A stretch of DNA of 64,000 bases from Limnomonas spitsbergensis (lineage: Eukaryota > Chlorophyta > Chlorophyceae > Chlamydomonadales): positions 1,520,501 through 1,584,500 of the forward strand of contig JAYJMM010000100.1 in NCBI GenBank assembly GCA_037349105.1, in the 5' to 3' direction. Numbering within the stretch: the first letter of the stretch is position 1; each line of letters begins with the position of its first letter. The position numbers and the translations under genes were made by a program. Below the pieces are notes generated by a model that did no database searches, was not told the origin of the DNA, and saw nothing but the letters and a program-made list of their open reading frames with translations. Positions 558 to 49,894 of this stretch are shown here, piece after piece.

Positions 558-1259
558 CTCAATAAGCTCGTCACCAAGTTCGCAAAGATACGACTCTCTG
601 ACCAGGTAACAGCAGCCAACTAACCTTAGCAGGGTAAGCCTCACCTTCCTGAAACCCTGAACCAGGGAACAGCAGTCCCCAACCCGAGACAGATTCAGAG
701 TGTAATCTCCTCTTCACCTTCGACCAGATTAAACCCGTCCCCTACCCTGAACCCTGAAACAGGTAATAGCAGCCCCCTACCCTAAACCCTGAACCAAGTA
801 ATAGCAGCCCCCTACCCTAGGCAGGGTAAAGCATTTGCCCTTCCCCTACACCTTCAACCAGAAGACAGCTGTCCCCTGTTTTTCACCCTTCGCGTATTTG
901 CCTTTATACTGCTGATCAGTCTTGGTCTCGCCTTCCTCCGCACACACAAAGGTCCAGGGTTACCTAGCACGGCCGTTTTGGCAAAGAATCCCGTACCGTA
1001 TCCCGTCCCGTCCCGTACCGTTTGGAACTACCGTACTGTCCATTTTCTTACTAGCCCATCCCATTATGCCCGTACTGTACCGTACCCGTACCGTTTGACC
1101 GTACCGTATTCCGTACCGGGTTCCCCTGCACAGGTCCTTGACATCATCATGGCCGTGTTTGGAGATGAGAAGGGCATCCTGGACGTGGACGCATTCATCG
1201 ACGCGATGAAGCGGAAGCTGAACTCTGTGCACGCCTCCAAGTTTGCGCTGGACTCGTGA
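558..1259 (+). CDS. MICU-like calcium-uptake regulator, C-terminal two exons (partial)
   Basis: Two exons can be spliced: 558-605 (acceptor GCGCAG, donor GTAACA) and 1134-1259 (acceptor CCTGCACAG, stop TGA at 1257-1259), both phase 0. The first gives LNKLVTKFAKIRLSDQ; the second continues VLDIIMAVFGDEKGILDVD and ends about 20 residues later. The arrangement LSD-x-V-x-D-x3-A-x-F, acidic/Gly loop, then F-x3-MK-x2-L resembles the last EF-hand of the MICU family, which gates the mitochondrial calcium uniporter. The EF loop is one residue short and lacks the canonical D-x-D-x-D-G spacing, so calcium binding is doubtful. Upstream exons lie before or near the window start. The family call rests on recalled similarity over about 58 residues; another EF-hand protein is possible. 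Confidence 0.5.
606..1133 (+). repeat. Intron with decayed copies of its own 5' splice junction
   Basis: The exon ends GACCAG and the donor begins GTAACAGCAG. Similar blocks recur at about 661 (ACCAGGGAACAGCAG), 722 (ACCAGATTAA), 756 (ACAGGTAATAGCAG), 794 (ACCAAGTAATAGCAG) and 856 (ACCAGAAGACAGC). They are separated by CCCTGAACCCTA-like filler. From 985 to 1120 the intron is a low-complexity CCGTA/CCGTC run. These look like tandemly duplicated and diverging junction copies. Confidence 0.6.
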
Positions 1260-1600
1260 TCAGCTGTGGCGAAATTTAAAATTCGAAATTTTAATTTCCT
1301 GGGCATTGACAAACAGGAGATCAACTCGGTGCACGCCTTCAAGTTTGCGCTGTTCTATCAAGTAATAATCGGCGGTGGTAAAATTCATATTCGAATTTTG
1401 AATTGCCAAGTCGTCGACAAGCAGGAGATTGACTCGTTGCACGCCTCACCGCTTGCGATTGACTGGTCATCGGTGGCGGCGAGATTCAAATGTTGAAATT
1501 TGAACTTACCGACGTCGCCAATGTGGAGACTCAGACCTTCCTGCACACCTCGCCCATGTTGTGCTTGACTCGTGATTTTCGGGGCGGGTTCGGGCAGGCT
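1216..1600 (+). repeat. Tandem copies of the terminal exon end (period about 100-108 bp)
   Basis: The last coding bases (AACTCTGTGCACGCC, then AAGTTTGCGCTG and GACTCGTGAT) start at 1221. Copies recur at about 1323, 1431 and 1529, each followed by an AT-rich AAATTT/AATTC stretch. The final copy still carries GACTCGTGATTTTC at 1567. The copies lie downstream of the stop, so they would fall in the 3' UTR or intergenic DNA. Confidence 0.75.
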
Positions 1601-2640
1601 TGCGGTGCTGTGGTGGGTGGGTCAGGGGGGGAAGCGTGAGGCGGCGTGAAGGAGAAAGGGAGGCTACTGAAACCTCAAGGCGGCATTATGGGCGTAGATT
1701 TCGTTCCGGCAAACCAGTTTGTAGCTGCCTGCTCGGTTGAGGACCAGATTTCGTATCTATAAGCTGCCCGGCTGATGAGGACCAGTCTTAAGTTGAGATT
1801 ACGTTGGCCTAGGCGGTATCTATTCATGGATACGTGCTGCAGCACATGCCCAGCGTGTCAGGCTACCAAGTCGAACTGTTAAGGACGTATGGGTTTGTCA
1901 CAGCATGTTTCCATGCATGTCGGAGTTGTTGATTTTTAATCTAGTGTTGGTACTTAATCTACCAATTCCACTGCCACATTAAAACGAAGTGCAGCGTGGT
2001 CCATGGACTGCATCTTCCCCTGTCTAATTCACTGGGCTCCATGTTCCTGCCTCCCTATGTAAGGAGGCTGCACCGTAATTCCTGGCTGTGCAAGTTAGCT
2101 GAAATTGAGCTTGCTCATCCCCTTCCAGCCCAACGAGGCTGAGCGTTCAGCAGGGCCCAGCTGGGTGATGACGTTACACCTTTGGGCCCTGCTTAAATAA
2201 AGATCGGCGACGTCGGCAAACATGAAGTCAGGTAGGAAAGTCAGGGGAGAAGGAACAAGAAGAAAAAAAGATAACATTCCAAACAACGAAAAGGCTAGGC
2301 AAACCGTATCCCCTGCCCCTCAAGAGACTAGCTTTTAAAATTCAATTACAAGGTCCACAAAAGCCAGGGCCTCCCATTCCTGCCTGCGGGCTATCCAAGT
2401 TCATGTCTCGTAGGGACAAAAAAAGAAAGGAACTGTATGGGCAAGAGGAGAGACAGAGAGGAGCAGCGGGTATGCCAATGCCGTTACACCTCTGCCATGC
2501 TCAATCAGGTTTGTCACGGTATAATGCAGTATACGTGCCAAAACCGTAGGGGCCGCTAAGTACTGCAGCCCCGGAGACTCCGCAGCTTCCCTGCGGAGCC
2601 CCCCCTTTTAGGGTTAGGAGCCCAGCTTCCCACTTTCGGG
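1600..2640. other. Intergenic DNA, no gene recognised
   Basis: No exon with good splice sites or long reading frame was supported. The segment around 2155-2190 (GACGTTACACC followed by GGCCCTGCT) resembles 55053-55080 in the retroelement leader, so the distal part may belong to the same repeat family as the feature at 2640-3170. Confidence 0.4.
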
Positions 2641-3170
2641 AAGATCTGAGGCAAGATTTCCCGTACCTTAGTAATAAGGGCTTGCCGGGACCTTGTATCC
2701 CGGCTTGCCCACTGTCCCTTACTTCGTTCCTTTTAAGTGGACAGGCCTCTAATTGTAAACAGCACCGGCTACATCCCAGGGATCTACCCAGTGAAGAGCA
2801 ACAACGCCAGTACCACTCAACTAGTCAAGCCTAGGACAGCCCTACAGCCAGCGTCTTAGCAGCCCTAGAACCCCAAAGTGAGACAATCAGCCCGACTCAG
2901 GCCTATGCCCGCAGTCTACGGCTACGGTCTCTCCCGCCGCGCGCGGTAAGTGACTCAGCGACCCTCCACATTAGCTATCTGGAAGGTCAGCGTTCTAGCT
3001 AAAGCCGAGTGCTAAACTCCGCGACTGTCATCTAGAAGTTCCAGCCACAGCTTAACGCGCTGCGCATCCGCGGCCAGTGTGTAGTCACTGAGCCCGCCCG
3101 TAGGCGTCCGCCACTCTGTGGGGAAGAAGTCCGCCATGGACCCGAAGCTAACCTCTCCAAGTAAAGTAGG
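2640..3170 (+). mobile_element. Retroelement LTR/leader-like remnant
   Basis: This segment is similar to 55280-55760. Shared landmarks in the same order include TATCCCGGC, TTACTTCGT followed by GGACAG, CCTCTA-TTGTAA, AGCACCGGC, CGCGGTAAGTG, CTCGCAGCCAGTG-like sequence, GCCCGTAGGCGTCCG and GAAGAAGTCCGCC. The copy at 55 kb sits directly in front of retroelement coding sequence, so this one is read as a solo LTR or truncated leader. Exact ends and target duplication were not resolved. Confidence 0.6.
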
Positions 3171-4004
3171 GGCGGTACCCACAAGCTAGGGGCGCCCGGG
3201 TAGGCCAGCCTTCCCTCTTATTAAGTACGCTGTACCTAGTTCCCCTTTACATCCCTTGTACCTCCGCAGTGTAGTAAAAGGTGCACGTGTGTACGGTGTT
3301 GTACAGTAGTTGTGAGTAGTGTGAGCCTCTCTATGGCGATACGGGCAGCTTCCACCATTTTGGCACGGTTACTGCTTTACGGTGCGACAGGCTCGGCCGT
3401 GGGTATGCACCATTTTAAACCGTGATGCTCTGATGGACTGTAAAAACTTAACAAAAACGGTGACCTCCGCACGAAACAAGGGCATGCCAGCATTTGTACA
3501 TCATGCAGGCATGAGAAATGTAAGGTCGCCATCTAGGTACAATCTTCATGTGTCAAAATCCTCGATCTGGAAGATCACAAAACAGCTACCTGTGTATCGA
3601 GCAGCCATGCAGGGGGTGGACTGAAACGTCACTTTGGGTCCCGACGAAACAATATGTGGCTTGCTAGCTGAAATCAGTCACAAATGGCAACGAAGAAGCT
3701 CAATATTATCAAATCGATTCCACGAACATTGAAAAATCTGAAACAGCAAGATGCCTGCTTCCCTTTCTTCCCTTAAGCTGGTATGAAGTACTAGATGGTA
3801 TGAAGGAGCTCAAGAGGGAAAATTGGAATCATAACACGAGACACAATACCGTGGCCGACCACTCACCACATGGTGACGTGATGAGGTATGGGGTACCATC
3901 CGGGACACGAGCACATGTCCCATGCATCAAATGTGATGCTCTGATGGACAGTAAAATTGGACGAAACGAAACTGGACATCCACCACTATACACTATTATC
4001 CATC
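3170..4004. other. Non-coding DNA with a short direct duplication
   Basis: No gene is supported. GTGATGCTCTGATGGAC occurs at 3422 and again near 3930, followed both times by GTAAAA, so a block has been duplicated about 510 bp apart. Short reading frames here have no recognisable domain. Confidence 0.4.
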
Positions 4005-5927
4005 TCAAGCTGGCATGCAGTACCACATGGCAACAAAGGAGCACATGAGGGAAAGCGTAATAATCATGCTAGATGCAGGTGCGGCGGCCAAGCCTCCAGA
4101 AGCTGCCACGGGGGCGGCATTAGATTTTGATCCAGGTCCTGGATCAGCATCAGATCTAGATCCAGATTCCTCTGGTGGATTCGTAAAAACCGCTGAAGGC
4201 ACTGCTGGATTTGGGGCAGCAGCTTGAGGTTCATTCGAAAGTCTCTCTGGGGTCAGACCCTGGGGCGTCTCCGAAGCAGCCGAGGGCGGCTGAGTTTCCA
4301 CCACTAATCCTTTGCCGACTTCTGTTGGTGCCACGATGGACGCTGAGGAGGGCATGTCAGCGGGATCTTCAACCCTCGCCTGACATCTGCCATTGGGGTA
4401 AACGGCAGCCAGCCACACTTCAGAACACGTGCGGATTAGCAAAACCTTTTCGGCCAGCACACGTCTGGGTTTGTGCGAGCCGAAAGCCGCAGGTCTGTCT
4501 CTGAGAGCATAACTCTCTGCTTGTGCGGTAAGGTAAGGTAACTGATGATCTCAGCCATCGCCTGACACCTGCCAGGTAAGGTAAGTGGTAACCCGCATGC
4601 GCTTAGCTGTAAAGGACATAGCGGTCAAGGTCAAGCATGGTAGAATCTCACCCTGCTGAAACGGTCTCGTCCGAGGTGGCAGGTGGCAGGTGGCAGGTGG
4701 CAGGGCATGTATATGTATGTTGCCTCTGTGGAGCATGCGACACATCTTGGGAGCCGGCAATCCACTATGTTCTTTTCCTCCCGCACCTTTCATTCATCTT
4801 TTATGATTGAAACACACATATTTTATTTCTGCACGTTTTAAAACTTCCCTCCTTCACGGAGCGTCCTGGCCGTTTTTTTTATTGCCTTTTGTAGGGTTTC
4901 ATTGCTAATATTGATTTAGGGTTTAGGGTTTAGGGTTTAGGGTTTAGGGTTTAGGGTTTAGGGTTTAGGGTTTAGGGTTTAGGGTTTAGGGTTTCATTGC
5001 TAATATTGATTTTCACCCGTTTAAACATTCATCGAGATTGCCCCACGCACTGTTTGATGAATAAACCAAAATCAATTGAAAATTTGTTGTTAAGCTAAAA
5101 GCAGCCGCCGCACTGAAGCTCCTGGAAGACCAAGATCTGACAGTCTAGAGCGTTCTCTAATCCTTCTCACCTGGCAGAGCATTCATTAAGGGTGGTCCAT
5201 CGGTTTCCATTTCCTCCGCAGCCACCATACTCAAACGCTTCACACTTCGAAGAGGTGGCGTTGTAAAAATAGCGCGTGATGGACGCCCTGATTATCCGGC
5301 AAAAGTACATGGTTCAGGGTCAAGAGTTCATGGTTCAGGGTCGAGAGTTCATGGTTCAGGGTCAAGAGTTCATGGTTAAGGGTCAAGAGTTCATGGTTCA
5401 GGGTCGAGAGTTCATGGTTCAGGGTCGAGAGTTCATGGTTCAGGGTCAAGGGTTCATGGTTCAGGGTCAAGAGTTCAGGATTCAGGGTCAAGAGTAAATT
5501 GTTCAGGGTCGAGACTTCATAGGTCAGGGTCAAGAGTAAATGTTTCAGGGTCAAAAGGTCATGGTTCAGGGTCAAGAATGCAGGGTTCAGGGTCAAGAGT
5601 TCAGATTTCAGGAAACCATACGGCAAGCGCTTTGGGTCAACAGATACAAGTCAATCATAGTTTTTTGACCTGCAGTGTTCCACAGTCTAGTATCCTGATT
5701 TACTAGCACTAAACTCTTAACCCTGAACCCGAAACCCTACACCGTAAACCCTACACCCTAAACCGTAAACCCTAAACCGTAGACCCTTATCTTACTGACC
5801 TGCAGGGTCCCACGTCCAAGGGCATTAGGCAAGCTGTGGCATCGTTGGCCTCGGCCTGTTCGAGCTGAAGGGAGGTATCAGGCATACAAACGTAGAGATC
5901 AGAAGCGATTGTTTTCGTAATGTACCT
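4005..5927 (-). CDS. Unknown protein, two 3' exons (partial)
   Basis: On the minus strand an exon at about 5800-5927 (acceptor AACAG, donor GTCAGT) ends in phase 2. It joins in phase to an exon starting at 4386 (acceptor ATGGCAG) that stays open to a TGA at 4005-4007. The first exon encodes a short helical stretch (SLQLEQAEANDATA). The second encodes about 127 residues rich in Pro, Ala, Ser and acidic residues, ending in a hydrophobic tail (SSMIITLSLMCSFVAMWYC) that could be a C-terminal membrane anchor. No domain is recognised. Matching phases and junction copies at 4543-4580 and 5668-5690 support the splice sites. Alternatively the second exon splices out before the hydrophobic tail. Confidence 0.4.
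4543..4580 (-). repeat. Decayed copy of a 3' splice junction
   Basis: On the minus strand TGGCAGGTGTCAGGCGATGG here mirrors the functional TGGCAGATGTCAGGCGAGGG at about 4371-4391. It lies upstream of it in the same intron. Confidence 0.65.
4677..4704 (+). repeat. Short tandem GGTGGCA array
   Basis: Four near-perfect 7 bp units (GGTGGCA) in a row, within the intron of the minus-strand gene. On that strand it reads CCTGCCA, similar to the acceptor context CTGGCAG. Confidence 0.8.
4893..5012 (+). repeat. Interstitial telomere array between 25 bp direct repeats
   Basis: About eleven perfect TTTAGGG units occupy 4914-4993. The 25 bp segment starting AGGGTTTCATTGC and ending ATTGATTT is present on both sides (4893-4917 and 4988-5012). 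Perfect telomere units inside a chromosome flanked by a duplication fit repair-associated telomere insertion or a local duplication at a break. Confidence 0.85.
5300..5615 (+). repeat. 21 bp minisatellite
   Basis: About fifteen units of a 21 bp motif (GTTCATGGTTCAGGGTCAAG plus A), decaying towards the right end. Since 21 is a multiple of three, open frames appear on both strands (LTLNHEL repeats on minus), but these are not credible proteins. The array lies in the intron of the minus-strand gene and probably grew from the TTCAGGG telomere-variant heptamer. Confidence 0.9.
5668..5690 (-). repeat. Decayed copy of a 5' splice junction
   Basis: Plus-strand GACCTGCAGTGTTCCACAGTC resembles the functional junction GACCTGCAGGGTCCCACGTC at 5797-5816, about 130 bp away. 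On the minus strand both read as exon end CCTGCAG followed by GTCA. Confidence 0.6.
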
Positions 5928-6833
5928 CTGTTTTTTTTGCGTCTGTTCTAGATTAATGGATTTTAGCATTTATGGACTCTGCTTCTTTTGTCCAAGAGCA
6001 CATGCACTTTGTTTAACCTATGACAGCAGTGTAACTAGTGTAACGTTATTGACCTATGACAGCGGCATCTGAGCACGTTGGATTGTTTTATACATTTATT
6101 TCTTGCCGTTGCAGCCGAGTACTTTCTTCTTTAGCTCACCCCTGCCAGCGGCAGCCAAGCAGATGCCCACCCTGCACACCAAACCTCCAGTGACAAACAA
6201 GATCTGTCTTGGGGTCGGAAATGAAAAACCGATATTGTATATGTAGCAATATCACAGGATTTTGTGGTGTAAATGAAACTTGCATACCGTACCACAGCGA
6301 CATAACAGACTTGTGAAGTATAAAATGATTTGTGTACCGGTGGCATAAAAAAATGCATTCTGATCGAAGGTCTGCAGTCCCCTGGGCTCTGAAAAGCAGT
6401 GCAGACTGTTTCGTTATTTCGGCAGCAAATCAGGGATGCTGCACCATGTCCTTTTCCTTAAAATTGTTTTTCTCATCAGGTACGCCCAGAGGCTGAACTG
6501 AAAATAACTTGGAGGATGACGACATATATGATTATACCGGTATGTAGGTACCTGTTACATGCTATGTACGGGTAAGACACTGTATCGGTACGGCATAAAC
6601 GACATATGTCAAATATGGGTTTGTCGCTGCAGCTAGATCATCTGCAGCTCGGGCAACCGGCCGGAGGCCATCCGAATCAGGTCTGGATCCCATATCCAAT
6701 CCAAGCATGGGTCCGTTGCTTTGGACCTGAACTCTAAATCCTAAACCCGAAACCCAAAACTGATGCCCTGTACCCGTAGGCCTTAGGCTTGAGGGTTGCG
6801 GCATGAAGGTTGCCAGCATTTTGCTATCACCAG
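5928..6833. other. Intron/intergenic DNA, no firm gene
   Basis: No exon could be confirmed. A possible short minus-strand exon near 6127-6177 (acceptor GTGTGCAG, donor GTGAGC) has no phase partner that I could find. Degenerate telomere-like units occur at 6735-6790. Confidence 0.35.
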
Positions 6834-6900
6834 AACCAACGTATGCCGGAGCCACTGGAGACACTCCGCAGCCAGATCGAACAAGCTGATGCCCATGCTG
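6834..6900 (+). CDS. Candidate single exon, helical peptide (partial gene)
   Basis: Acceptor ATCACCAG and donor GTAGCC bound a 67 bp segment that reads NQRMPEPLETLRSQIEQADA and two more residues, ending in phase 1. The composition suits a coiled coil. Two decayed copies of its end follow at about 6995-7035 and 7095-7120. That is the same junction-copy pattern seen at confirmed exons in this window, and it is the main reason for listing the segment. Neighbouring exons were not found, so the gene is unidentified. Confidence 0.3.
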
Positions 6901-8416
6901 GTAGCCCAAATCCTCAACCCTCAACCCTCAACTCGCCAACCCTAAATCCTTTAACCCTTAGCTTTCAATCTTGTTGCTGTCACTGATGGCAAGACACCGG
7001 CCATGGAGAGAACAAGCAGATGCCCAGGCCAGTACCCTTAACACTGAATCCTGAACCGAAACACCCTGAGCGCTTTGCCCCTCAACCCTTCACAATCACC
7101 TGCGCCGATGCTGGGTCCAAAAGAGAGAGGGACGCGACCAGGCAGAGTAGGCGGATGACCAGCATGCCAGCACCGGTCCTCATTGGCTCAGCGGTATTTT
7201 GATGACTTGAATACGTGATTCGTTATGTGACCAGGTGGCAGACTGCCTTGGCTTGCGAATGAGAGGGATCGCGGAGGACCTTAAATAGGTTTAACGCCGT
7301 CAAATTCTCTCCAACTCGTGTTTTGCTGGGTTGAGTCTCAAAAGCAAGCCAGCTAGCAAGCTGCAAGCAGAGTATGTCAGGAGGTAGGAAAATCGACAAC
7401 TAAAATGCTGGAATGGATTAACAAGTCTACAGTGTCGGGTTGCAGACACCAAGGTTGCTGAATAACGCGTACGTTGCACTGCTTGATGGGCCTGCTATCA
7501 TGTCGGAGTTCCGTTCGGCCGGCCGGCGACAAACGGTCATCACGAACGGGGATCCCGGATCCTGCGGCCGGGATATCCGCGAGACTCACTCGATCGGAGT
7601 GCACCAGCGCAGGATCTATCATCCTGGGTTGTAATCCTGCTCCGCACGGAAACATCTCCGATTGCATTCTGGATTGTATTCGCACCTGCAGCAAATCTTT
7701 TACAAATTGATTACACAACGAGTCCGAGACGGACTCATACCCCAAAGGGGCCGAATCGCAGGCCACATCCATGATAAACATCACCACATGAACATTTGAT
7801 TTCTGCATTCCACCTAAAATTGTGAAGGCACAGGAGTGAAACTGGCCTACTAGGTCCGTGAGGCCACAAGAACTTCAGCCTGGGGTATGGGGTCTGGGGT
7901 AATGTTGCAAATTTTCCCAGTTGTGAAAATGTAGGGTCGAGGACCGCCCGGTTGAAGGGTGCGGGCACTGACAGCCCAACAGCATAGTGGACTATGCGCA
8001 AATGATTTATCCCGCGAACCTAAATTCGTCTAGCTTATGTTAGGTCCTCGTTACAAAGTTTGGTTTTTTGATGCGGTGGATGCTTAACCGTTATGTTCGG
8101 TTTGAACGCCCGGATTGGATGGGGGCCACACGTTCCGTCGACATTTCACAGCAGCATATGCAAACATCAAATAGCAGACATATCCTCCGTCAGCCAGTCT
8201 AACCCGACATTTCTTCGCATCATTTCTTGACATTTGCAATTGAAGGCTCCGCGGGCCTGACAGGCACACTACTGTTCTGGGTAGGTTGTGCGCACATCCG
8301 CACACTCACTTCGCGCCCAGTCCCGAATAACAACCATTCAACCAACAGGCACAGAAGCCATCCTGCTTAAACAGCGACAGCGAGGCCAATCCGTGTAAAA
8401 CCGAAGGCTTCGCAAT
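6901..8416. other. Intergenic DNA with telomere-like filler
   Basis: 6915-7090 is mostly degenerate AACCCT units. A more GC-rich stretch at 7490-7640 carries overlapping frames on both strands (about 140 residues on minus), but neither has splice sites or a domain I recognise. The SelU promoter should lie just before 8417; no clear TATA-type element stands out. Confidence 0.35.
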
Positions 8417-11400
8417 ATGAGTCTCATTGCCAGCCGGAGCCGAACTGCTGGCCTCAGAAGCAGCGAGGTCGCCCCAACAACAGGGAAAACAGGCAGGAAC
8501 GCTATACTGCGCCACCGTGCAGGAACAGCGGCATTGTCTGCATTGCCGTCCTCGTCTCGGATGCAGCTTATTATGGGACAGTCTGTCGCAGCTCCTGCGA
8601 GAGCCGAGTCGCGGCGTAGGTTTTGCCATGTCACTCAAGCAGCGATGGACGTCTCGTCATCGAGCAACCCGCTTATGCGGTGAGTTAGTAAGAAGCAAAT
8701 CCAGCAGTTGACAATCCAGAGGTAGCGCACGCAGAATGTGTGTTCGATGGATATCGCTTCGTTCCACGACCCGCAGATGAAACATTCAGTCGATCATTCA
8801 ACATGTCGTCCATGCCTTGTTTGTGGGGGTGTGAGGGCGCCGTCTGCTTGTGTGCATGGCCGACTTTGGCAACCTTTTCTCATAATCGTTTACTAGGTAC
8901 AATTACATATGCACGATAGCCACGAACAGTTTACAATCCGTGCATTTATGTGGGTGTGAGGTCCATGTGTATTTGCGAGGTGCATGGGTGCAATGTGCAT
9001 GGGCGTGTGCTTGTCTCTTGAGGTGCATACGTGTGTGCATGCACGCGTATTGCATTTGTGTCGGGTGCATGTGTGTATGCATGTCAATGAGATGCAAGGG
9101 GTGTGCATGCACTCATGGTGCATGGACGCTTGGTGCATGCACGCGAGGTGTATGTATGCAAGATGCAAATGTCGGGCATGTGTGTGACTGTGTGAGGTGG
9201 ATGTGTGTGAGTTGCCTGCTCGCAAGTCGCTGTCATGTGTGCACGCTAGGTGCATGTGTTCATAGCACATACCGTAGTCACAGATGTATTTCGTTGTTTT
9301 GATCGTTGTCCAGGGAGCAGCGAAATCAATTGTGGAAATGTTTTTGACTGGAATTTTTCATGTCAAGAGGCAATCAAAACAATCACCAAAACAGCGACTT
9401 TTTAAGCAACAATGAACTTCGAAAACAACGAAACACGTCCGTGACTACGGTACATGCGAGGTGCATGAGCACGAGGCGCATGTGTCTTTGTGAGGTGCAT
9501 GGATAGTTGGGTACACATAAATTTAAATCTGGTGGGTCGTGGACAGCAGGTGGCAGGATACCTGCGTAGCAGATGCATTCACGCTGGCCCTGAGCACTGT
9601 CTAACAGCCTGGGCTTCGTGTCAAGGTTCAACCCTAGTTTAAGCCCTACACCCTTAACCCTAACAGCCTATACTTGCCATGAGCGCAGGGTTCCCCAGGG
9701 TACTCTTCTCACCCGAGTGGACGGCAGTAGAATCACTGTCAGTGACGTCACGGATGGCAAAGTCGTGCTGGCCCTGCTGCGCCACCTTGGATGACCTGTG
9801 AGTGCCGGCCGCAGATAACCGATAACCTAAACCGATTACCTAAACCCTAAACTGATTACCTAAACCCTAAACCGATTACCTAAACCCTAAACTGATTACC
9901 TAAACCCTGCTGCGCCACCTCCGATGACCAATGAGTGCAGGATGAGCAGATGACCCTAAACCATGAACCCTGCTGCGCCACTTCGGATGACCCGTGTGTG
10001 CTGGTAGCAGATAACCCTAAACCCTCACCCCCTTCACCCTCAAACTTGCTGCGCTACTTCAGGTGACCTGTGAGTGCCGGTAGCAGATGGCGAGAAACCC
10101 TAAACCCTAAATCCTGCTGCGCTACCGTAAGTCACCTGTGAATGCAGGTGTGACAAAAAACCCTCAACCCTTAACCCTGCTGTGCCACCTTAAGTGACCC
10201 GTGGGTGACAGTAGCAGATGACCCTTAACCATAAACGCTGCTGCGCTTCCTCGAGTGACCCGCTAGTGCCGGTGTGGCAGATGTTGTGTATTTTTGAAGT
10301 TGTTTCAGCAGGCAAGGAGTAAGGTGACACAACAGGGAGCAACGTCATGCTGTTTCCACTCCGCTGCATCTCCTGAGGATTGGGCAGCCCAGCCCTGACC
10401 CATCCTGCCATGCCGTGCTGTGCCATGCCTCCACCCTTAATAAACCCTTTGCCCCTCAGATGGGCTGGGAGCAAGACAGGTATCTGCTCTTTCTGATCCT
10501 CCAATTATATGCCTACCCGCCTTGATCTGCCATCGATGAGGTCCTGTCCTGCCCCACCCTTCTTGCCCCCTTCATAAAACCCGCCTCGCCTCGACCCTCC
10601 TGTCCCCGCCCCTGTCAGCTGTGCTGGGAGCAAGCCAAGAATCTGCTCCCCATGGTCCCTCAGTCCAACGCCGCTATCCCCTCTGCTCACACACACACAC
10701 ACACACCTCGTATGCCCCTGATCTCCTCACCCCTTCCCCCTTCATTCAGCTGTGCTGGGAGCAGGCCAAGAACCTGCTTCCTATGGTCCCTCAGTTCAAT
10801 GCTGCCAGCCATCGGCTTGCCCCGCCTCTCATAGGTCCCTTACCCGCTTCGCCCCTTCTTCCCGTTCAGCTATGCTGGGAGCAGGCCAAGAACCTGCTCT
10901 CTATGGTCCCTCAATTCAACGCTGCCGGCTATCGGCTGGCTGCCGTGTCTATCGGCACCCCTGAAGGCGCCAGGACGTTCTGCCAGGACGTACCCTTCCC
11001 GCCAGAGCTGCTGTACCTGGACAGCCCGGACCGCGAGTGAGTGTAGGTTGTTGTAGGTAGGATCTATGATCCTAAACCCCGAATCTGCAGGGTATGAACA
11101 CGTTTTTAGACGGGTGTTCTTCCCGCCCCGTCCGAGCTGCTTTACCTGGATAGCCTGGATCGCGAGTGAGTGGCTGGTAAGGGGCAGGTTGTTGTAGCTG
11201 AGACGTATGATCTTTAACCCGGAATCTGCAGGGTGCAAACACATTTGTAGACGGGTGTTCTTCCCGCCCTGTCCGAGCTGCCCTACCTGGACAGCTCAGA
11301 TCATGCGTCAGTGGCTGCTAGGGTGTAGGGTTTTGGAGCTGGGGCGTATGACCTTCACACCCGCAAGTTAGGCTGTTATATTTTTCAGGTTTAAGACTTG

Positions 11401-14400
11401 AAATCTACAGCCTTTATTTTAAAAGACCTCAAAACCGTTTATCCCACAGCCTTGCTCCAAGGGTCCAAAACTCTGGAACCTACTATTCACAACCCTAAAC
11501 ACCAAAGGCCGCAAAGCGATTGACCTCAAACCCATGATTCACAGCCTCAAGTCCACAGGGCCCCAAAACACTCAACCCAAAATTCTGAATCTTGAACCCC
11601 TTGGTCAGTGTGTTTGAGGTGGTCTATGTGGGGCTGGAAGGTCCGTCTTGATGCCGTTTTCCCGCTCAAATCAGCAGGAAAACAGCATCATGACGGACCT
11701 TTCAGATTCTTTGAGGCTCTCAGGCTTCTCATGGATTTTCTCGAGGCACCCAACACTTCAAAAAGGCCCACCTAGAAAAACCATGCATGAATGCGGCAGG
11801 TGTCAACCTCTTCTTGTGTGTCTCCTCTCAGGTTCTATAAGGCTCTCAGGCTCAAGGACGGCGTCTTCTCCATGTTCCAGGGCGCGTCCTCCATTGAGGT
11901 GGGGTTCAGGGTTGTCGTATGGGAAGAGTGTCTAGGGTTTTAGGTAACATTTAGGGGATATGGTAAGAGTGTCTTAAGTTTCACGTTTGAGGACAATGGG
12001 AAGAGTATACAGAGGTTAAGGTTAACATTTGAAGGTTTTAGGAAGAGTGTCCAGGGTTAAGACTTAACGTTTGAGGGATACCCCGCAGGCCCGCAGAGTT
12101 TTAAGTTACCCGGACAAAATAGGCATTCTGTCGTTCTGTCAGGGTGCAGCATACATTGTGTTGGTGGGGAGGTCATGGGTCGAATTTCAGGGCTAAGGGT
12201 TCAGGTTTAAGGGTTGTTTTGTTGGATTTTTGTAATGTTAACAAATCAGTCGTCTTCTCTTTCTTCCAGGGCGTGTCCTCCATCGAGTGGGGTGGAAGGA
12301 TAAAGGCTGAGTGTCAAGGTTACGGTTCACGGTTAGAGCGTTGAGCTTAAGGTTACCGGTTGCTAAAACGAAGAGGCATGTTCTCCTTTTCCATGTTGCA
12401 GTATCCATGCAGGTGGGATAGAGGGTCACCAGGGGCTGAGGGATACTGTGTCAAGGGTTAAAATTTGAGGGTAATCTTGCAATTCATGTCTGAGGGTTAG
12501 CCTCACTTTTAGCCGATGTTTAAAAATCCATGATAATCTTTTGTACGTCCAGCATTCCTATTTGGAGGAGCCGGGGTGACCAGGATCTACTCCCTCGTCC
12601 CTCTCCCTCAAAAGCATTGCCTTTTGACTCTCCGAGTGTATGCTGATCTCCCTTGCCAGCCGTCTCTTCATGTCCTTTCCACCCCTCAAGTTGATGCTGA
12701 CCTCCTGCTGCAGTAGTGGGCACGACCGCTACTTTTCTGCAGTCCTTCTCCCCTTCCGCTGAACCAGCCTACCCCATCTGATACTGCCCACCTGCCAGCG
12801 TGCTGCCCACCCCCCTCTGCTGCCCCCCTCCCCCTCCTTCAAATCCCCCTGCGTTTAATATCATGGCCGCCGCCTCTCTGCTGGCCCTCTTCCCACTCAG
12901 TCAATCCTGCTTAACCCATCTGATACCGTCCATCTGCCAGTGTGCAGCCCTTCCCCCTTTGCCCCCTTGAACCACTCTTCATATCCTGTCGACCCTCGAA
13001 TTGATGCAGGCTCCCCCCCCCCAACCCACCTCCCTCACGAGCATCTTCTCCCAACCCCTCCTGCTGAACACTCAATTAAAATGCCACACTGACCTTCTAC
13101 CCCCATTCCCCCTGCACGCACCCACTTGGCCTCTTCTGTTTGGGACTCAATTCGAAGGCTTGGATGAAGAAGGTGAGCTGGGGCCATGCGGGATGTGGGA
13201 CCCCTCTAAACCAGTTGAGGGTTAAGGGCTCATCCCTAGGCTTTCCCTGTATCAGTACTTGTGTAGGGTTACGGTTTGATGATAAAACCCCTGAACCCTT
13301 AACCTTGGTGCCAGTACAGGGTTAAGGGTTGAGGGCTTAGGCCCCATGTACACTGGATTTGAGCAAGGCTGGCGTTTCCATGCAGAATAACAAGATGATG
13401 CCGTTTTTGCCCTTGCCTAAATTCTAGTTCCAATCCTGCCCCTCCCACCCATGCAGGATTTGAGCAAGGTCGGCAGCGCCATGCAGAATTACAAGATGAT
13501 CGCCCCGGCCAACACAGAGATGACCACGCAGCAGGGCGGCACGTTTGTGTTTGACAACTACGAGCTCCTGTACGGTTGGGAGGTGAGGGTCAAGCAACCG
13601 GATGGGGCATGGCTGGGCGGCGAGCCAGCTGCCGGGAAGGGCCAGGAAGGGAGAAGCCTGCTGCTGCCACGCTCATCAACGTGCATTTTCCGCTGAAATT
13701 AATGTATTTTCCTGACCAGTTTGAAAAGCTGATGAGGCCAGATGCGCAGTATGGGGCCACAAGCCTCCTCCACGAAAGCTCAAACCCCGACTGATATTTA
13801 TTTGTTTTGAATTTCTAGCCTGTGACTTCCACCAACCCATCAGGGTTGGTTCGTTCCGTCCCTGGTGTCGGTGTGCATGCCCACGACGAGGACTTTCCTC
13901 AGACCTGATCCTAAATTTTGAATGTGTAAAAGATCTCACAATTGCTGGACCTCAGACCCCGGAGTCTGAGCCCAGGCGCCCAGCAAGGATGTCCTACAGG
14001 CCTGTTATTTGAATTTAACTATGAGTACCCTCCACACTTCAGGACCTTGGCGTCGGAGCTCATGCGCCCAACAAGGATGTCCTCCAGGCATGTGATTGAA
14101 ATTTGAATTTGCACACCCTCCACACTTCAGGACCTTGGCGTCGGAGCTCGTGCGCCTAACAAACGTCCCACAACAAGAATGTCCCACGTGCCTGAAATTT
14201 GAATTTTAGCGTCCTGCTTTCTTTAAATCCCAGCATCGGAGCTCACGCGCCCAACACTGAAGTGCCACAACCTTCAAATTTGAATTTGAGCGCCCTCCAC
14301 ACTTCAGGACCCTGGTGTCCGAGCTCTTGCACGGGCCTAACAAGATCGACAAATACGCCTTAGCTTAGAATTTGAATTGAGTCTGCATTCCACTTTGAGC

Positions 14401-14758
14401 AGGCCTGTGCCCGTAATTTGAATTTGAATCTCCGCGCCCTTCACAATTTAGGACCCTTGCATCAGAGCTCAAGCGCCCAACAGAGACATCCTTTAGGCCT
14501 GTCCCTGAAGTCCGAACTTGAATTTGAACACCCTCCTCAATTCAGGACCCCGGCGTAGGAGCTCACGCGCCTAACGACGACGTTCTTCAGGCCTGCTGCT
14601 CCTCAAGCGGCCCGCCAGGAGGGTTTACCTACCCCCCTCTGGGAGGGCCTGCCTATCCCCCTCTAGGAGTGCCTTCCTACCGCCCACCCAACGCTGGGCC
14701 TGGCTACCCCCCCGGTGGTGGGCCTGTCATGCCCCCGCCTGTCTTGAGGAGATTTTAG
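8417..14758 (+). CDS. SELENOU: Selenoprotein U-type peroxiredoxin-like protein (AhpC-TSA_2 / PRXL2), plastid-targeted
   Basis: Six exons join in phase: 8417-8679, 9689-9797, 10870-11036, 11832-11898, 13457-13582 and 14546-14758. All have GT-AG sites and total 945 nt, giving 314 residues if the TGA at codon 123 is read through. Residues 1-70 are Ser/Arg/Ala-rich, like a plastid transit peptide. The thioredoxin-fold core follows: TVSDVTDGKVVLALLRHLG, then U123-P-L-C126, then WEQAKNLL, AAVSIGTPEGARTF, FPPELLYLD, FYKALRL, QQGGTFVF and HAPNDDVLQACC. These blocks occur in this order in plant PRXL2-type proteins, where the motif is CxxC. Members of this family are thought to be thiol or selenol redox enzymes. 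The last 45 residues form a Pro/Gly/Tyr-rich tail unusual for the family. Introns are full of junction copies. If UGA is not recoded, the product would end before the active site. Confidence 0.85.
8680..9688 (+). other. SelU intron 1 with GTGCATG-rich low-complexity stretch
   Basis: Intron with donor GTGAGT and acceptor GCGCAG. From about 8935 to 9260 it is a run of imperfect GTGCATG/TGTGCATG motifs that generates spurious frames on both strands. 9440-9500 has further GAGGTGCATG motifs. Confidence 0.6.
9792..9794 (+). other. SELENOU: In-frame TGA, predicted selenocysteine codon
   Basis: The codon lies between GGA and CCT at the end of exon 2, at the position where homologues have the first Cys of the RHFGCPxCWE-type motif. 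Reading it as Sec gives the UxxC motif typical of SelU proteins. The frame is open for 122 codons before it and 191 after it across four junctions. Five of six decayed copies of this junction downstream also keep TGA at the equivalent place, so a single-base sequencing error is unlikely. A SECIS element was not found by eye. Confidence 0.72.
9904..10275 (+). repeat. Six decayed copies of the SelU exon 2 / intron 2 junction
   Basis: The functional end of exon 2 (CTGCTGCGCCACCTTGGATG, then ACCT and the GTGAGT donor at 9798) is followed by copies starting near 9907, 9969, 10047, 10114, 10177 and 10238. Most keep CTGCTGCG, TGACC, a GTG-AGTG-like donor and a trailing GGTAGCAGAT. Filler between them is CCCTAAACCCT. 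Five of six keep TGA at the Sec position (TCA in the fourth). A separate ACCTAAACCGATT microrepeat lies at 9825-9905. Confidence 0.88.
10455..10835 (+). repeat. Copies of the SelU exon 3 acceptor and 5' coding part
   Basis: Near-intact copies start at 10618 and 10745, each with a C-rich tract, CAG, and coding LCWEQAKNLLPMVPQ. The copy that continues into the full exon starts at 10870. A more decayed copy begins near 10453. Spacing of the close copies is about 125 bp. The first two keep AG acceptors and an open frame, so they could act as alternative acceptors. Confidence 0.9.
11105..11310 (+). repeat. Copies of the SelU exon 3 / intron 3 junction
   Basis: The exon end encoding FPPELLYLD and the GCGAGTGAGTG junction (10998-11042) is copied at about 11117-11172 and 11245-11312. 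Both copies keep CTTCCCGCC, GAGCTGC-TACCTGGA and a GAGTGAGTG or CGTCAGTG end. Confidence 0.88.
11697..11760 (+). repeat. Copy of the SelU exon 4 acceptor side
   Basis: CTTTCAGATTCTTTGAGGCT followed by CTCAGGCTTCTC resembles the functional CTCTCAGGTTCTATAAGGCT and CTCAGGCTCAAG at 11826-11855, about 130 bp downstream. Confidence 0.75.
12265..12300 (+). repeat. Copy of the SelU exon 4 / intron 4 junction
   Basis: TTCCAGGGCGTGTCCTCCAT followed by CGAGTGGGGTGG mirrors the functional end TTCCAGGGCGCGTCCTCCAT and TGAGGTGGGGTTC at 11876-11905. The copy lies about 390 bp downstream in intron 4. The flanking GGGTTAAGG-type sequence is telomere-like. Confidence 0.8.
12700..13150 (+). other. SelU intron 4, C-rich tract
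   Basis: Pyrimidine-rich sequence (many CCCCTC/CCTTC runs), with two related blocks around 12765-12830 and 12905-12960 (GCTTAACCCATCTGATAC versus GCCTACCCCATCTGATAC, then CTGCCAGYGTGC). No exon is supported; a reading frame at 13140-13200 does not match the protein family. Confidence 0.55.
13345..13400 (+). repeat. Copy of the SelU exon 5 acceptor side
   Basis: GGATTTGAGCAAGGCTGGCG followed by TTTCCATGCAGAATAACAAG corresponds to the functional exon 5 start GATTTGAGCAAGGTCGGCAG and CGCCATGCAGAATTACAAG at 13457-13495. The copy precedes it by about 105 bp. Confidence 0.85.
13945..14545 (+). repeat. Six decayed copies of the SelU exon 6 acceptor
   Basis: Blocks starting near 13947, 14040, 14128, 14231, 14305 and 14450 share TTCAGGACC-TTGGCGTCGGAGCTC, then GCGCCCAACA and a GTCCTYCAGGCCTG end, followed by ATTTGAATTTG and CCTCCACACTTC. 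The seventh and functional copy begins at 14546 and alone continues into the full terminal exon. Spacing is about 75-145 bp. Confidence 0.9.
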
Positions 14759-14965
14759 ACAGGGCAGACGCAGGCCAGGGGGGGTGCCTGGCAGTGACTT
14801 TGCACCTTCTCGCTTGGGCAGCGAGGTGAGGGGCTTCACGCCTCTATCAGCACACCGTGGGATGGATGCCCGGAAGGAGTGAAACAGCGCCTCATCATCA
14901 GAGATGGGTGGTCCAGGTTGCCCCAAGGATTGCCCTGCCTTTCCAGGACAAAAATAAAGCCAAGT
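14759..14965 (+). other. SelU 3' UTR candidate
   Basis: Sequence after the TAG stop. It contains several inverted segments (for example CACCTTCTCGCT with AGCGAGGTG at 14802-14830, with TGA on both flanks) and an AATAAA at 14953. No stem-loop with the full SECIS core (TGA, unpaired AA or CC, opposing GA) convinced me. Confidence 0.4.
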
Positions 14966-16480
14966 CCCGTTTGGGCGTGAGAGTTAAAGAAAAAAACAGA
15001 CTTAAGTAGCCCTGCCTGCTATGTGACGTGCTCCTGGGGTGATATGGGTTGTCAGGTTTTTAGGGTCTCTGACTGGGTTTAGATGAGGAAAGGCGGGTTT
15101 CCACAAGGAAAGCTGGTTGCTGCCATGCCTGATATATGACGCGCTCCTGGGGAAGCATCTTGCGAGGTGTCCAGAGCGCTGAACTTCCCTTTTTCATAGA
15201 GGGGTGGGCAGGTGATGGCCGGCTTTCCTTGTGGGTCCTGATTGATTCCTTGATATCCAGACCATGTCGGTATAGTTCATGGGTTTTCGGTCAAAATTAG
15301 GGGCACCTCGAATAACCTGCAATGGGCACTCGTAAAATGGCCATGTCCTGGAGTCTTTCAGACTGTACCTGAATTGGAGCATTTCGTATTATCTACATGC
15401 CCATTTGATTTACGGTTCAGATGCCCTAAAGAAACTAGGACAGCGAGCGGAACGACATTGCCCAGCCCTGGGCAAGCAATCAATCACAGACAAGCGGCAA
15501 GGGAATGACCCCCACGGATATACTGCAACATGGCACTCAGATTCTACACTACGGCACTCGGTTGTTTAACGTAGTTCTCAGATTCTACAAATTGGCACTC
15601 AGATTAATGTATCACAAGCTGGAGTTCCTTCCACATGCATATCAGGCAAGATTATCCACTGGTCGTTTTTTGCACAAAAGAGAGGATTCTGAAGCGAATA
15701 GCATGTTTAAGGGTGTGCGTACTATGTGCTCAAACCCTCAACACAAGCAACGCAAATATAGTAAACGTGGAGATAAATAACAGACCTACCGCTCACTGCA
15801 CCTCCAAACAACGAGCGGGGAAGTAACTTCGGTGTATGAGGGTCAAAGATACAAATGATAAACCCTAAACAGTGGATGAGTTATTCAAGGTCACATATTT
15901 AATATTTTTGCAGAGTGACCTTCGGCAAAACAATCCGCTACACATACAATCCTTGCAGCGTTCGGTAAAAACAATCAGCAACATTGCCTCCTACAAACCT
16001 GGGGAGTCCCGGGAAACCTGGTGCAGCAAGCCCTGCCGATCGTAGGCAGGTTGAGGCTTGGTTCTCATCGGCCCAGGGCAGGCTGTTTGAGGGGGGGGGG
16101 GGTTAGGGTTTCCACTGAAAGCCTGCTGCCTGTTACTGGTCGCCCGGCAGTCAGCCTTGGCTGGTCGCCCGGGCAGCCTGAACTGAATAATTTAAATAAA
16201 GCACTGGAAAGCACTGGAAATATGGCTAAGGGCTATTTCAGCTCATTGACTCCTGCGGCCCTAAGATTCCTGCGTCCCTAATCCCCCAAGCAAGCTGCTA
16301 CCCCCCCCCCCTTCAAACGAACAAGCCAGTCTTTCTTTTTCCAGCCTCAGTGCCTCCAACAGCGAGCTGCCCCACAGCCGGCCAAAGGCTGGAACGGGGC
16401 CAGGCCTTGACTGGCTACCAGACGCAGGCCCAAGCTGACCAATTGGCCGTGCATGAGGTCACCGGCCGGAGGGCCATGGG
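14966..16480. other. Intergenic DNA between SelU and the bZIP gene
   Basis: No gene is supported. Small repeats are present: a direct duplication around 15017-15045 and 15125-15150 (ATGTGACGTGCTCCTGGGG versus ATATGACGCGCTCCTGGGG), an inverted CCACAAGGAAAGC/GCTTTCCTTGTGG pair at about 15099 and 15222, and short GGCACTCAGATT units at 15530-15610. These are the ordinary decayed duplications seen throughout the window. Confidence 0.5.
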
Positions 16481-16879: not shown

Positions 16880-19800
16880 TTATTGCTGCTGCTGTTCTTG
16901 TTGCTGCTGTTGCTGCTGTTGCTGTTGTTGTTGATGTTGCTGTTGTTGCTGTTGTTGCATCCCCATCGACAGCAGTCCCGGACGCATCCTCCCTGTTGCC
17001 TGTTGCATTGGCGTGTCCGTCGTTCGAGGCGGTTGAAGCATGCCTGTCTCGGGCCCTGCCTTGAGAGCCGGGCTGGGCCGGTGGGCAGCGTGCAGCCAGC
17101 TGTAGCCGAGCGCCTCCATGGACTGCCTTTGCCCGGATGGTCCCGGAGGCGTGGAGGCCCCGAAGGCACCGATGCCACTAGGCGCTGATGCCCCGTCAGC
17201 ACCGAGCGCCGGGCCCCCTGTGGCTGGAGCGATGTCGAACGTTATGAAACCGCACGGTCTCGGGAGGCTTTGGAGCCGGGGTACGGGCGGAGGATGGCTC
17301 GCCGCCGCCACTGAAGTGCTAGGTCCGCCGCTGAGGCTGCCGCCGCCGCCGAGGGGCGGCGTCGAGGCCGGGCCGGAGGCGCGCCGCCGCCCGGCAGGCT
17401 GTACCGCGAGATCTGGCGATAGGCGGGCGGGCAGCGGCCCAGCGGGGCCCGCCCTGAACAGCCCGTAACCATGGAAATCGGCCTGGTGCTGCTGCTGCTG
17501 CTGTTGTTGCTGTTGTCCTATTTGTTGCCGTTGTTGCCGCAGCAGCAGGTGTTGCTCTTGCTGCTGGAATGGATGTTGCAGCTGATAGGGCTGCAACTGT
17601 TGCAGGTGTTGCAGATGTTGCATGTGCTGCATGTGCTGATGTCCCTGCAGGGCCTGTCCCTCGTGCTGCAGCCACAGTTGTTGCTGTGTGCTTAGCTGTT
17701 GTTGCAAGTTATGACGCAGGTGCAACTGTTGCTGCTGCTGTTGCATTGTTGCGGATGTTGAGGAGGTGAGGAAGCCGCCTCTGGCAGCCTCTCCACCCCT
17801 TCCTGGTGATGTTCTAGGACCTCCCAGGTCCGGACGGCCCTGCAGCTGTTGCAGCTGTCGCTGTTGCTGTTGTAGCTGCTGTTGTTGCATGGCTGTGGCT
17901 TCTGCATGTGGTGGGTGCAGCAGGCCCACTTGCTCGCCTGAAAGGTCGTCTGGGAGACTATTTTCGAGCCCCAGCGAGGCCTGCACGTGTGAAGGGGGGT
18001 AAAGACAAATTAAATATTATAACTTATGTGGAAATAGTGTGTCAAAGGGTAAGCAACATTTCTAAACACATATGGTTTTACCCCTACCGATATTCCACCG
18101 ACCTCATTACTTAGATCCTAAGAAAAAAACGCCTTTTATACTGACCTGATTATGCTTGAGAGTTAAGGGTATGAAACCTAGACCCGAAACCACTGAGAAA
18201 ATCAAGTGTCTTGGTCCAACCCTGGACCCTGTTCCCCTGGCTTCATATCACTTTGACATCAAGGGGCAACATGACTGTAATACTGACCCGATTATGCTCA
18301 AGAGTCCACGGAATTAACTCTTAACCCTTAACCACAGACCGAATTTTGTGCCTAAGATCAAGCCTGGACTCTATTCCGCCATCTGATTTTTTTTGAACTC
18401 CTAGATTTAGAACGGGTACCGGGACGATACAGACCTGATCAAGATATTCTTGAGGGCGGTAGGCATTCATCCTAAACCCTAAGCACCAATATGACCAACT
18501 TTGCATTCAACGCCCCAAGCAACTGAAACCAGAAAACCTCAACCCTAGATCCTCAAACCCTTAACCCTACACCCTGAACCCTCAGTCTTGAAACAACACC
18601 TACCTGTAGACTCAGGACCTGGTCTCCCAGCCTCCGATTCTTTTCCACACTATCCATCAGCAGCTGGCGCCAGCGGTCAGACTGCGTTCACACAACGGTT
18701 CCACATTTTGGGGCCCGGCGGGCGGAATTTCTCAAAACCCCCCTCTCCCCCAGTTTGTATGGTTTAGGTACCAGGGTGCAGCTCTGAGCCCTGTGCGACC
18801 TTCCATCATGGCCTAGGATTTATGGCTAACGGTTAAGGGCTCAGGGCTCAGGGTCATGGGTTAAGAGATAAGGGTTAGGCATTCAGCCCCGTGCCATGAG
18901 TGTTGCTTCCATCATGATGCCCCTCCCTCCCGAATGGCAAAATATGTCAGACTGGCTCGGATCGATATGGCTCGTAATTATGTAGCTCGGTTCTCTTCCG
19001 CCCGGATCCTGCCCCTCAGAACCAGAACCCTGAACCATGTAAGGTTTGATGCATCTAACGCTTTCGTTTTCTCTCAACATTCTTCTTAGCTTGGATCTAA
19101 GAAGAAGATTGGTGCGATAGATGTTACCACCACGCTAAAGGGTTCAGGGTTCAGGGTTCAGGGTTCAGGGTTCAGGGTTCAGGGTTCAGGGTTCAGGGTT
19201 CAGGGTTCAGGGTTCAGGGTTCAGGGTTCAGGGTTCAGGGTTCAGGGTTCAGGGTTCTGATCGGTACCAGCCAAGTAACAGTGACGGACTTAAAGGAATG
19301 TGCCCGCAGACACTTCCGCATAGCATATCAATACAGCGTATTGGTGAAAGGCCTGATGGCTGGATGGTTGGTTGGTTGTTGGTAGCATTTCTTACGGTGC
19401 AAGCGGTCACACTTGGTGCAGTACATAACACCACATCGAGCGTAGTACATTGAGAATGTAGTACATCATATATAGTAAATCCAGGATACGGTGTGGGACA
19501 TAACTGACGTAGTGTGCAGTACATGCAAGGTGCAGTACATCCAGGGTGCAGTACATTAAGGATGTCATGCAGGTAGAAGACACAATGTGTTTATAAGCAG
19601 CTTATATTGACATTCATGGCTACGACAGAAGCAGGTCCAGGGCCTTTTCTGAAGTCAAGAACCTTAACCCTGAACCCTGAACCCGAAACATTCTGACCCC
19701 GTCCTGCCCCATTACCAACCCTACCACCAACCCAACATCATCCCCTTCTCTCATACGTTACCCTAACCCTAAACCTATCCCGCATCCCATGTTCCAACGG

Positions 19801-48606: not shown

Positions 48607-49190
48607 CTGAGCAGGAAAGAGAGAAGAAGGGTGAATCAGGTATAAAGGGATGCATGCGCAACATGAAAAATTGCCCTTGGCAGCTGATCAGGGCGAAAAG
48701 GAGTACGGTAAGTAAGTTGTAAAGGTATGCATGTTGAACATAACTTTTGCTCTGGGCGCCCCCCGCCCCCCATTGTTCCCCTTGGACGGCACAACTTACA
48801 GGACCTTCTTTAACCTCCTCTTTACCCTTCCTCTTATCCAACTTTTCTCCCCTGTTTTACCCCCTCTTTTCCGCCTCGCCCCTCACCCTCCTCTTTACCC
48901 ACTTCCTACCCACTTTTCACCCTCCTTCCCACAAATACTCCCTCTTTTCCGCCTTAACTTCACCCTACTCATCTCCCCTTCACCTTCCTCTTACCCACTT
49001 TTCCACCTTACGTCCTCCCTACTTCCCACCTTCCTTCACCCTCCTGTCCACCCTCATCCTTGTCCTCAACTCAAACCATGTGAAGGCATATGGCGCCCTG
49101 CTCCTGTCAAGACGGCTGTCGGCTCAATCTGAAACTTGACCAATGACAATCCATTGCATGCAGAGGAAATAGATTAGGGCTTGTCTCAAC
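48607..49190. other. Intron/intergenic, pyrimidine-rich
   Basis: 48607-48640 (minus) is a good polypyrimidine tract and acceptor for the bZIP exon. 48780-49060 is dominated by CCCTCTTTT/CCACTT runs on plus. Open frames there are composition artefacts. Further 5' exons of the bZIP gene may lie here, but I could not identify any. Confidence 0.5.
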
Positions 49191-49670
49191 AAAATGCTTC
49201 GGGTACTTAACCCTCAACCCTCAACTCCTAATGAGCTTCAGGTACTGAACCCTCGAACCAGAAACCTAAAACCCACACATGCTCTAAGCACTAACCCCTG
49301 GACCCTTAACCCGTAACCCCTATAATGCTTAAGGTACTTAACCCTGAACCCTTAATTCGTAACCCCTAAAACGCTTTAGGTACTCAACCCTGAACCCTTA
49401 ACCCTACCTTAAACCCTGTCATGTTTCAGATATTAACCCCTCAACCCTCAAACCTAAACCCACAAAAGCTTTATGTCCTAAACCAGTCGCCCTTAAACTT
49501 GCAACCCAAAAATCCCCCAGGTACCAAACCCTCTTCCCTTCAACCTGAACCCCTAAAATTCCCCAGGTACCAAACCAGCCTCCCTTAAACCTAAACCCCT
49601 AAAATTCACCAGGTACCAAACCCTCCTCCCTTAAACTTCATCCCCTGAAATGCTTCAGGTGCTGACAAGA
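49190..49670 (+). repeat. Degenerate ~60 bp repeat with a CTTCAGGTAC core
   Basis: About eight units pair ATGCTTCAGGTACT (or TTTAGGTACT, CCCCAGGTACC, CACCAGGTACC) with AACCCTNAACCC filler. Each core resembles an exon end followed by a GTAC donor, matching the junction-copy pattern elsewhere. No functional exon was identified. Confidence 0.65.
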
Positions 49671-49695
49671 CATTTCATGATCAGCATTCTGCACA

Positions 49696-49850: not shown

Positions 49851-49894
49851 CTACACCTTAGGGCTTAAGGCCTACAGCTATGGGGGGCTGGAGA

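Follow-up and report, generated by a model that had tools for sequence, protein, structure and literature searches.

Decayed direct copies of exon edges and the length of introns in the snow alga Limnomonas spitsbergensis

The window analysed here is a stretch of 64,000 nucleotides from contig JAYJMM010000100.1 (positions 1,520,501 to 1,584,500, forward strand) of Limnomonas spitsbergensis, an Arctic snow alga with a reported genome of 260.248 Mb in 124 contigs, a mean intron of 788 bp and 6.7 exons per coding sequence, whose genome growth has been tied to repeats and retroelements (PMC11228838). The parts of that paper drawn on here contain no discussion of how its introns grew, and the driver of long introns in chlamydomonads is likewise left open in the corresponding part of PMC8226300. 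The subject of this work is a SelU-like gene of the window, in which exon edges and their splice sites recur as decayed direct copies inside the adjoining introns (termed stutter below), and the relation of such copies to intron length in other genes of the same genome.

The SelU-like gene and the copies of its exon edges

The joined exons of the gene match the AhpC-TSA_2 domain (PF13911, E=1.1e-16), as expected of a SelU or PRXL2-like protein. The first modelled exon ends with RHLG-TGA-P and the next opens with LCWEQ, and the frame gives UPLC when TGA is read as selenocysteine; both this reading and the name SelU are assumed from general knowledge together with the frame. None of the 372 candidate protein homologues compared reached E<=0.001, and the 4 Rfam matches on 9600-15600 were all below gathering scores, with the SECIS family not among them. 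The gene model is as follows.

9699-9797, plus strand: first modelled exon, ending ...RHLG-TGA-P, from frame and splice sites (start at 9699 uncertain)
9798-10869, plus strand: intron 1 (1072 bp)
10870-11036, plus strand: exon 2 (LCWEQAK...SPDR), within the PF13911 match
11037-11831, plus strand: intron 2
11832-11898, plus strand: exon 3, from frame and splice sites
11899-13456, plus strand: intron 3
13457-13582, plus strand: exon 4, from frame and splice sites; alignment scores show its donor without copies
13583-14545, plus strand: intron 4
14546-14758, plus strand: last exon with stop codon, from frame

Three paralogues (L006, L007 and L008) lie on another contig, C9, which has an additional exon-like match at C9:4772012-4772152. 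At the UPLC site, the in-frame TGA is kept in L006 and L007, and L008 has GGATGAACC instead.

Each junction was examined by aligning 45 nt of exon edge plus 15 nt of intron to the remainder of its own intron, with dinucleotide shuffles (200 per side in SelU), the reverse complement and other introns as controls, and sides were called positive at p<1e-3 (Gumbel). Decayed direct copies of the exon edge with its splice site were found at 7 of the 8 SelU junctions, with scores of 21-44, as against shuffle means of 9.9-12.2 for the seven positive junctions (largest single shuffle, 21) and scores of 8-12 over all 8 sides both for other SelU introns and for the reverse complement. The lowest positive score, 21 at the intron-2 acceptor, equals the highest of its 200 shuffles (Gumbel p 2e-4; p 2.3e-5 in the larger analysis), and the intron-4 donor was null in this test, with no copy at score >=18. 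At that threshold there are 22 copies in all: 6, 2, 2 and 0 at the donors of introns 1 to 4, and 3, 1, 1 and 7 at their acceptors. The stutter that the initial annotation described in this gene is therefore borne out, with shuffles, foreign introns and reverse complement at background.

9905-10282, plus strand: six decayed copies of the exon-1 donor edge in intron 1 (identity 0.70-0.83; GT in 4 of 6; side p=7.1e-6)
10445-10809, plus strand: three decayed copies of the exon-2 acceptor edge in intron 1 (identity 0.71, 0.80 and 0.86, rising towards the exon; AG in 3 of 3)
11122-11326, plus strand: two copies of the exon-2 donor edge in intron 2 (identity 0.84 and 0.72; GT in 2 of 2; 141 bp x2.3 by Tandem Repeats Finder, TRF)
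11698-11726, plus strand: copy of the exon-3 acceptor edge in intron 2 (score 21, identity 0.86, AG kept)
12251-12293 and 12375-12426, plus strand: two copies of the exon-3 donor edge in intron 3 (identity 0.86 and 0.72; GT in 2 of 2)
13343-13402, plus strand: copy of the exon-4 acceptor edge in intron 3 (identity 0.80, AG kept)
13860-14501, plus strand: seven copies of the exon-5 acceptor edge in intron 4 (identity 0.68-0.83; AG in 4 of 7 as aligned), the best-kept part with a period of ~88 bp (TRF 88 bp x2.3)

The C9 paralogues are positive at 9 of 24 sides, and their units differ. At the exon-2 donor the unit measures 55 bp in L006 and is also present in L007, whose exon-1 donor has a unit of 84 bp; at the exon-4 donor of L008 it is 130 bp.

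Copies and duplicated sequence in introns across the genome

The same test was applied to genes found by probing the whole genome (260,226,709 bases, 124 contigs) with the proteins PP2A, RACK1 and actin. Fifteen genes were fetched regardless of stutter, 14 of which gave introns, and with the 4 SelU genes they form a curated set of 18 genes and 85 GT-AG introns (69 blind, 16 SelU). Left out were PPP_C104, in which no splice was found, two gaps between the exon matches of actC103, one VTC gene at locus L013, the actin-probe matches on C36, C75 and C118, and the PP2A-probe matches C34:2177608 and C123:2245299; among 112 RACK1-probe matches, only the 6 of the C121 gene were taken. Certain acceptors, such as PPP_C120b 1516, are doubtful.

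Over these 85 introns, alignment to the flanking exon edges gave an excess above controls, with 36 of 170 sides positive (20 of 138 in the blind genes), as against 0 of 170 for the reverse complement and 3 of 1244 for other-family introns of similar length, both at score >=18. In an earlier pass with rougher exon borders, 2 of 42 PPP sides stood above all shuffles and the reverse complement gave 1. A stutter at nearly every exon, as first described, is seen in SelU but does not extend to the 18 genes overall. Its occurrence follows intron length: at least one side is positive in 16 of the 24 blind introns of at least 400 bp (donor 9/24, acceptor 11/24) and in none of the 45 shorter ones. By side, the positive blind counts are 0/56 below 200 bp, 0/34 at 200-400 bp, 4/16 at 400-800 bp, 7/18 at 800-1200 bp and 9/14 above 1200 bp, and the one positive short intron, of 355 bp, belongs to a SelU gene. 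Within a single gene, actC110, every intron of at least 700 bp (four) is positive, as against none of the four that measure 87-273 bp. Both sides of the junction are covered by at least 6 nt in 136 of 154 copies, as in boundary-spanning internal duplication, and copy identity is mostly 69-97% (5th to 95th percentile).

However, the junctions are not privileged. In a scan for local direct copies with targets of 600 bp either side of the window scanned, 399 of 749 intron windows were positive, as against 5 for the reverse complement. In introns of at least 700 bp, copies at score >=18 were found for 37 of 68 junction-centred windows (54%) and 330 of 579 interior windows (57%), and at score >=40 the junctions are depleted (11/68, 16%, versus 209/579, 36%; p=0.001). 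Thus, duplications occur throughout introns, and those spanning a junction are, if anything, rarer among the most similar copies. Their reach into exons is limited: a 60-bp window slid over the junctions of 38 introns of at least 400 bp was positive in 32-55% of cases from the junction inward and in none at 60 bp or more into the exon, and 0 of 68 exon windows at 70-130 bp from the edge had an intron copy, although very short exons could escape this count. Elsewhere, four stretches of the 64-kb window, taken as mostly intergenic without annotation, gave 19 of 197 positive windows (none at score >=30), the retroelement-like end of the window 2/46 and 7/83, the DNA over the bZIP gene 24/87, and that upstream of the C9 genes 3/41, 8/49 and 7/71.

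Duplicated cover rises with intron length (Spearman 0.79, 63 introns of at least 120 bp). The 24 long blind introns, with a mean of 1143 bp, are locally duplicated over 56% of their length (reverse complement, 2%), and the length outside this cover still averages 497 bp, as compared with 166 bp for blind introns shorter than 400 bp. TRF assigns 15,602 of 48,091 bp (32%) in introns of at least 400 bp to tandem repeats with periods >=12, so that minisatellites are part of this material.

Paralogues differ in the same manner. Seven actin introns at common positions sum to 931 bp in actC116, without cover, and to 5743 bp in actC110, where cover is 25-77% in five introns (273-1947 bp) and absent from two (87 and 136 bp); the actC116 partners of the five covered introns measure 64-206 bp and have no cover, and the eighth intron of actC110 (106 bp) is without a partner in actC116. 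Intron 1 of PPP_C116 is 1942 bp long with 87% cover and contains a 46-bp unit in 22 full copies. The unit joins the last 18 nt of the exon to the first 28 nt of the intron, and CAG|GT is intact in every copy; the same intron of PPP_C105 has 297 bp and no cover. Because 21 of the 22 copies have one common letter that differs from the exon, most of them seem to derive from amplification of an intronic copy. No new intron at a formerly exonic place was found in these pairs, which have common positions (seven in actin, two in PPP_C116 and PPP_C105), and the paralogues differ in intron length; the route to new introns suggested by the initial annotation is therefore unnecessary.

Both conventional actin genes contain a 48-bp micro-exon (IMFETFNVPAMYVAIQ), at 976-1023 of L025 and at 724-771 on the reverse strand of L026. 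A 221-bp array of ~seven units, which by eye does not look junction-derived, occupies 1-1554 on the reverse strand of L020, upstream of a PPP exon pair resembling the C34 gene.

Intron lengthening by local duplication and competing explanations

It is likely that existing spliceosomal introns lengthen in this genome by repeated local direct duplication, with the junction stutter as its visible rim. Segments of roughly 20-150 bp would be duplicated directly, often in tandem, anywhere in the intron or over its edge. Duplications inside the exon would be removed by selection, and those straddling a junction could survive, since splicing at the exon-attached copy would still yield a normal mRNA; the copied exon edge and splice site would then stay in the intron as a decoy and decay, and certain copies may expand into arrays through further (unequal) exchange within the intron. 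Microhomology-mediated duplication plus unequal exchange is the best guess for the origin of the duplications. An excess of at least 2 bp in the matching run is seen in 76% of 17 recent two-copy duplications, as against 18% at random breakpoints; this set is what filters left of 64 (101 raw), several lying in arrays or simple repeats, and the microhomology at breakpoints is suggestive only. The duplication proposed by the initial annotation stands insofar as local direct copies carry exon edges and splice sites above chance, in unrelated genes too, and go with intron length, but the junction itself does not appear to be the duplicated unit.

Several observations weigh against lengthening by local duplication as proposed here. 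The choice of long introns selects whatever lengthened them, leaving the cause unproved, and the 24 long blind introns are spread over just 6 genes, in a sample drawn with three probes, so that gene and length are partly confounded. Exon and intron parts of the copies have decayed equally (0.811 versus 0.803, p=0.81), whereas mutation confined to the intronic copy would be expected to leave the exon part in better condition. The gradient of age with distance is not significant: similarity is higher for the nearest copy than for the farthest at 17 sides and lower at 9 (binomial p=0.17), which leaves the progressive decay first described weak. Moreover, DNA outside known introns can also be rich in copies, with 31 of 65 windows positive at 48060-52000, where there is no gene model and which is possibly intronic or a repeat-rich spacer, and 12-51% in five random, unannotated 10-kb stretches. 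Local duplication reaches beyond introns, and part of these rich stretches may be genic. Finally, splice letters in the decoys are kept better than their neighbours, which pure neutral decay does not predict.

This last point bears on the possibility that copied splice sites are kept by selection for a role in splicing, as decoy, alternative or recursive sites. Per side, the splice dinucleotide is retained at 0.909 versus 0.806 for neighbouring positions (higher in 30 and lower in 4 of 34 sides), and comparison with the same dinucleotide elsewhere in the copies gives p=0.041 for donors (17 sides) and p=0.045 for acceptors (11 sides); the intact CAG|GT of all 22 PPP_C116 donor copies points the same way. 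However, the blind genes alone give p=0.09 (18 sides), in the pooled spanning copies acceptor letters survive at only 0.45-0.48, probably owing to a single side with 30 copies (pooled acceptor p=0.23), and the requirement that alignments cross the junction may favour intact junctions. The better retention could thus reflect function or a bias of alignment choice and is only suggestive. Selection of this kind as the explanation is improbable, and a combined reading, in which local direct duplication is the main engine of lengthening, perhaps in relatives too, most long introns thereby store copies of their own sequence and edges, and copied splice sites are preferentially kept as splicing decoys or recursive sites, is only slightly less so. 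It is very unlikely that splice junctions are instead duplication hotspots arising through splicing or transcription (R-loops, the splice-site sequence or reverse splicing). Positive calls at 7 of 8 SelU junctions, and homologous junctions of paralogues that stutter with different units, would fit such hotspots, but junction windows are no richer than the interior and are poorer in the most similar copies, and the short blind introns also have junctions, yet none of the 45 stutters.

That the introns are introner-like elements or other mobile DNA spread among genes would fit the occurrence of introners in green algae (PMC3879977), but the copies found here resemble the edges of their own gene, with the foreign-intron count at 3/1244, and a genome-wide search with one 181-bp SelU segment, the sole segment searched, matched only itself, its own decoy and the three SelU paralogues. 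On these two results, the search covering that one segment, the introner explanation is very improbable. Chance, low complexity or an assembly artefact is just as remote. CCCTAAA-like and C-rich tracts are frequent in these introns and the assembly derives from PacBio continuous long reads (CLR), but it was polished with PacBio and Illumina reads (PMC11228838, as far as drawn on here); moreover, identities of 69-97% are unlike assembly duplicates, and short introns of the same assembly have no copies. Chance and low complexity were rejected on the reverse-complement and foreign-intron controls.

The copies resemble minisatellites in their head-to-tail units, with TRF periods of 12-201 bp in introns, but the unit often holds an exon edge and a splice site, and TRF-tandem sequence amounts to 32% as against the 56% locally duplicated in long blind introns. 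Tandem duplication of (mutually exclusive) exons also copies exon sequence beside itself; unlike in that process, only partial exon edges are copied here, and the exon-window count, which very short exons could escape, revealed no whole exon flanked by both splice sites. Gao and Lynch (2009) reportedly described internal gene duplication over exon-intron boundaries. The present copies are likewise segments within genes that span such boundaries, but they stay in the intron as decaying decoys, recur often and make up about half of long-intron length, and they are evidence of neither a new intron nor a new exon. That duplications can span exon-intron boundaries and contribute to intron gain is already known (PMC3443670, PMC4974935, PMC2891723), with tandem genomic duplication as a route to new introns in the Rogers model and the potato RdRp (RNA-dependent RNA polymerase) case (review, PMC3443670; potato, PMC4974935). 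As far as these sources are cited here, the likeness lies in a tandem duplication that crosses an intron-exon boundary and duplicates splice signals, and the difference in that existing introns, at positions common to paralogues, lengthen here instead of new ones arising. The related core-Reinhardtinia algae have conspicuously long introns for which the cited part of PMC8226300 names no mechanism, and local duplication is a candidate there. Among literature titles, none was found that describes green-algal long introns built in this way, which, for titles alone, does not amount to absence from print.

Should recognisable local duplication account for roughly half of long-intron length, the length of an intron would become a readable record of a mutational process, testable in any related genome, with exon edges serving as the copies anchored by selection. 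Annotators should also note that gene prediction can be misled by decoy exon ends whose splice sites are intact.

Other genes and repeats

The stutter claimed for two neighbouring genes fared unevenly. The MICU-like intron 606-1133 is positive at neither of its 2 sides (donor p=0.0035, acceptor p=0.029), but the 3' edge of a MICU-like exon (~1206-1265) scored 28 against downstream DNA (five shuffles, 7-11), with three copies of 72-83% identity; its frame ends with TGA, so this may be the end of the gene rather than a splice junction. In the bZIP gene, one of six sides is positive and the other five are not.

1206-1576, plus strand: MICU-like exon 3' edge with three downstream copies (1311-1352, 1419-1471, 1542-1576), by alignment
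19935-19963, minus strand: copy of a bZIP exon donor edge in intron 19978-18682 (score 21, p=7.2e-5, identity 0.86)

Beyond the window, Pfam searches with whole frames of random loci gave the VTC gene (plus strand of L013), one aminotransferase exon (plus strand of L012) and nothing on L011. Acceptor-edge-like copies (GCAG|GTGGTACGGTGATCTGAAC) lie upstream of an exon-like stretch in the VTC-domain gene of L013, at 2880-3440 and 5198-5430.

Within the window, a 26-bp satellite of ~1006 copies (95% match) extends over 26 kb at 21889-48051, flanked by bZIP-like and polyQ-like reading frames, and internal perfect arrays are present at 4915-4994 (TTTAGGG x11.4) and 19139-19257 (AGGGTTC x17). The stretch 56100-61750 consists, by eye, of two long arms that are mutually reverse-complementary around ~58930; it holds a CCHC-knuckle-like frame (CFNCGKPGHFANAC) and resembles an inverted duplication of a retroelement gag region.

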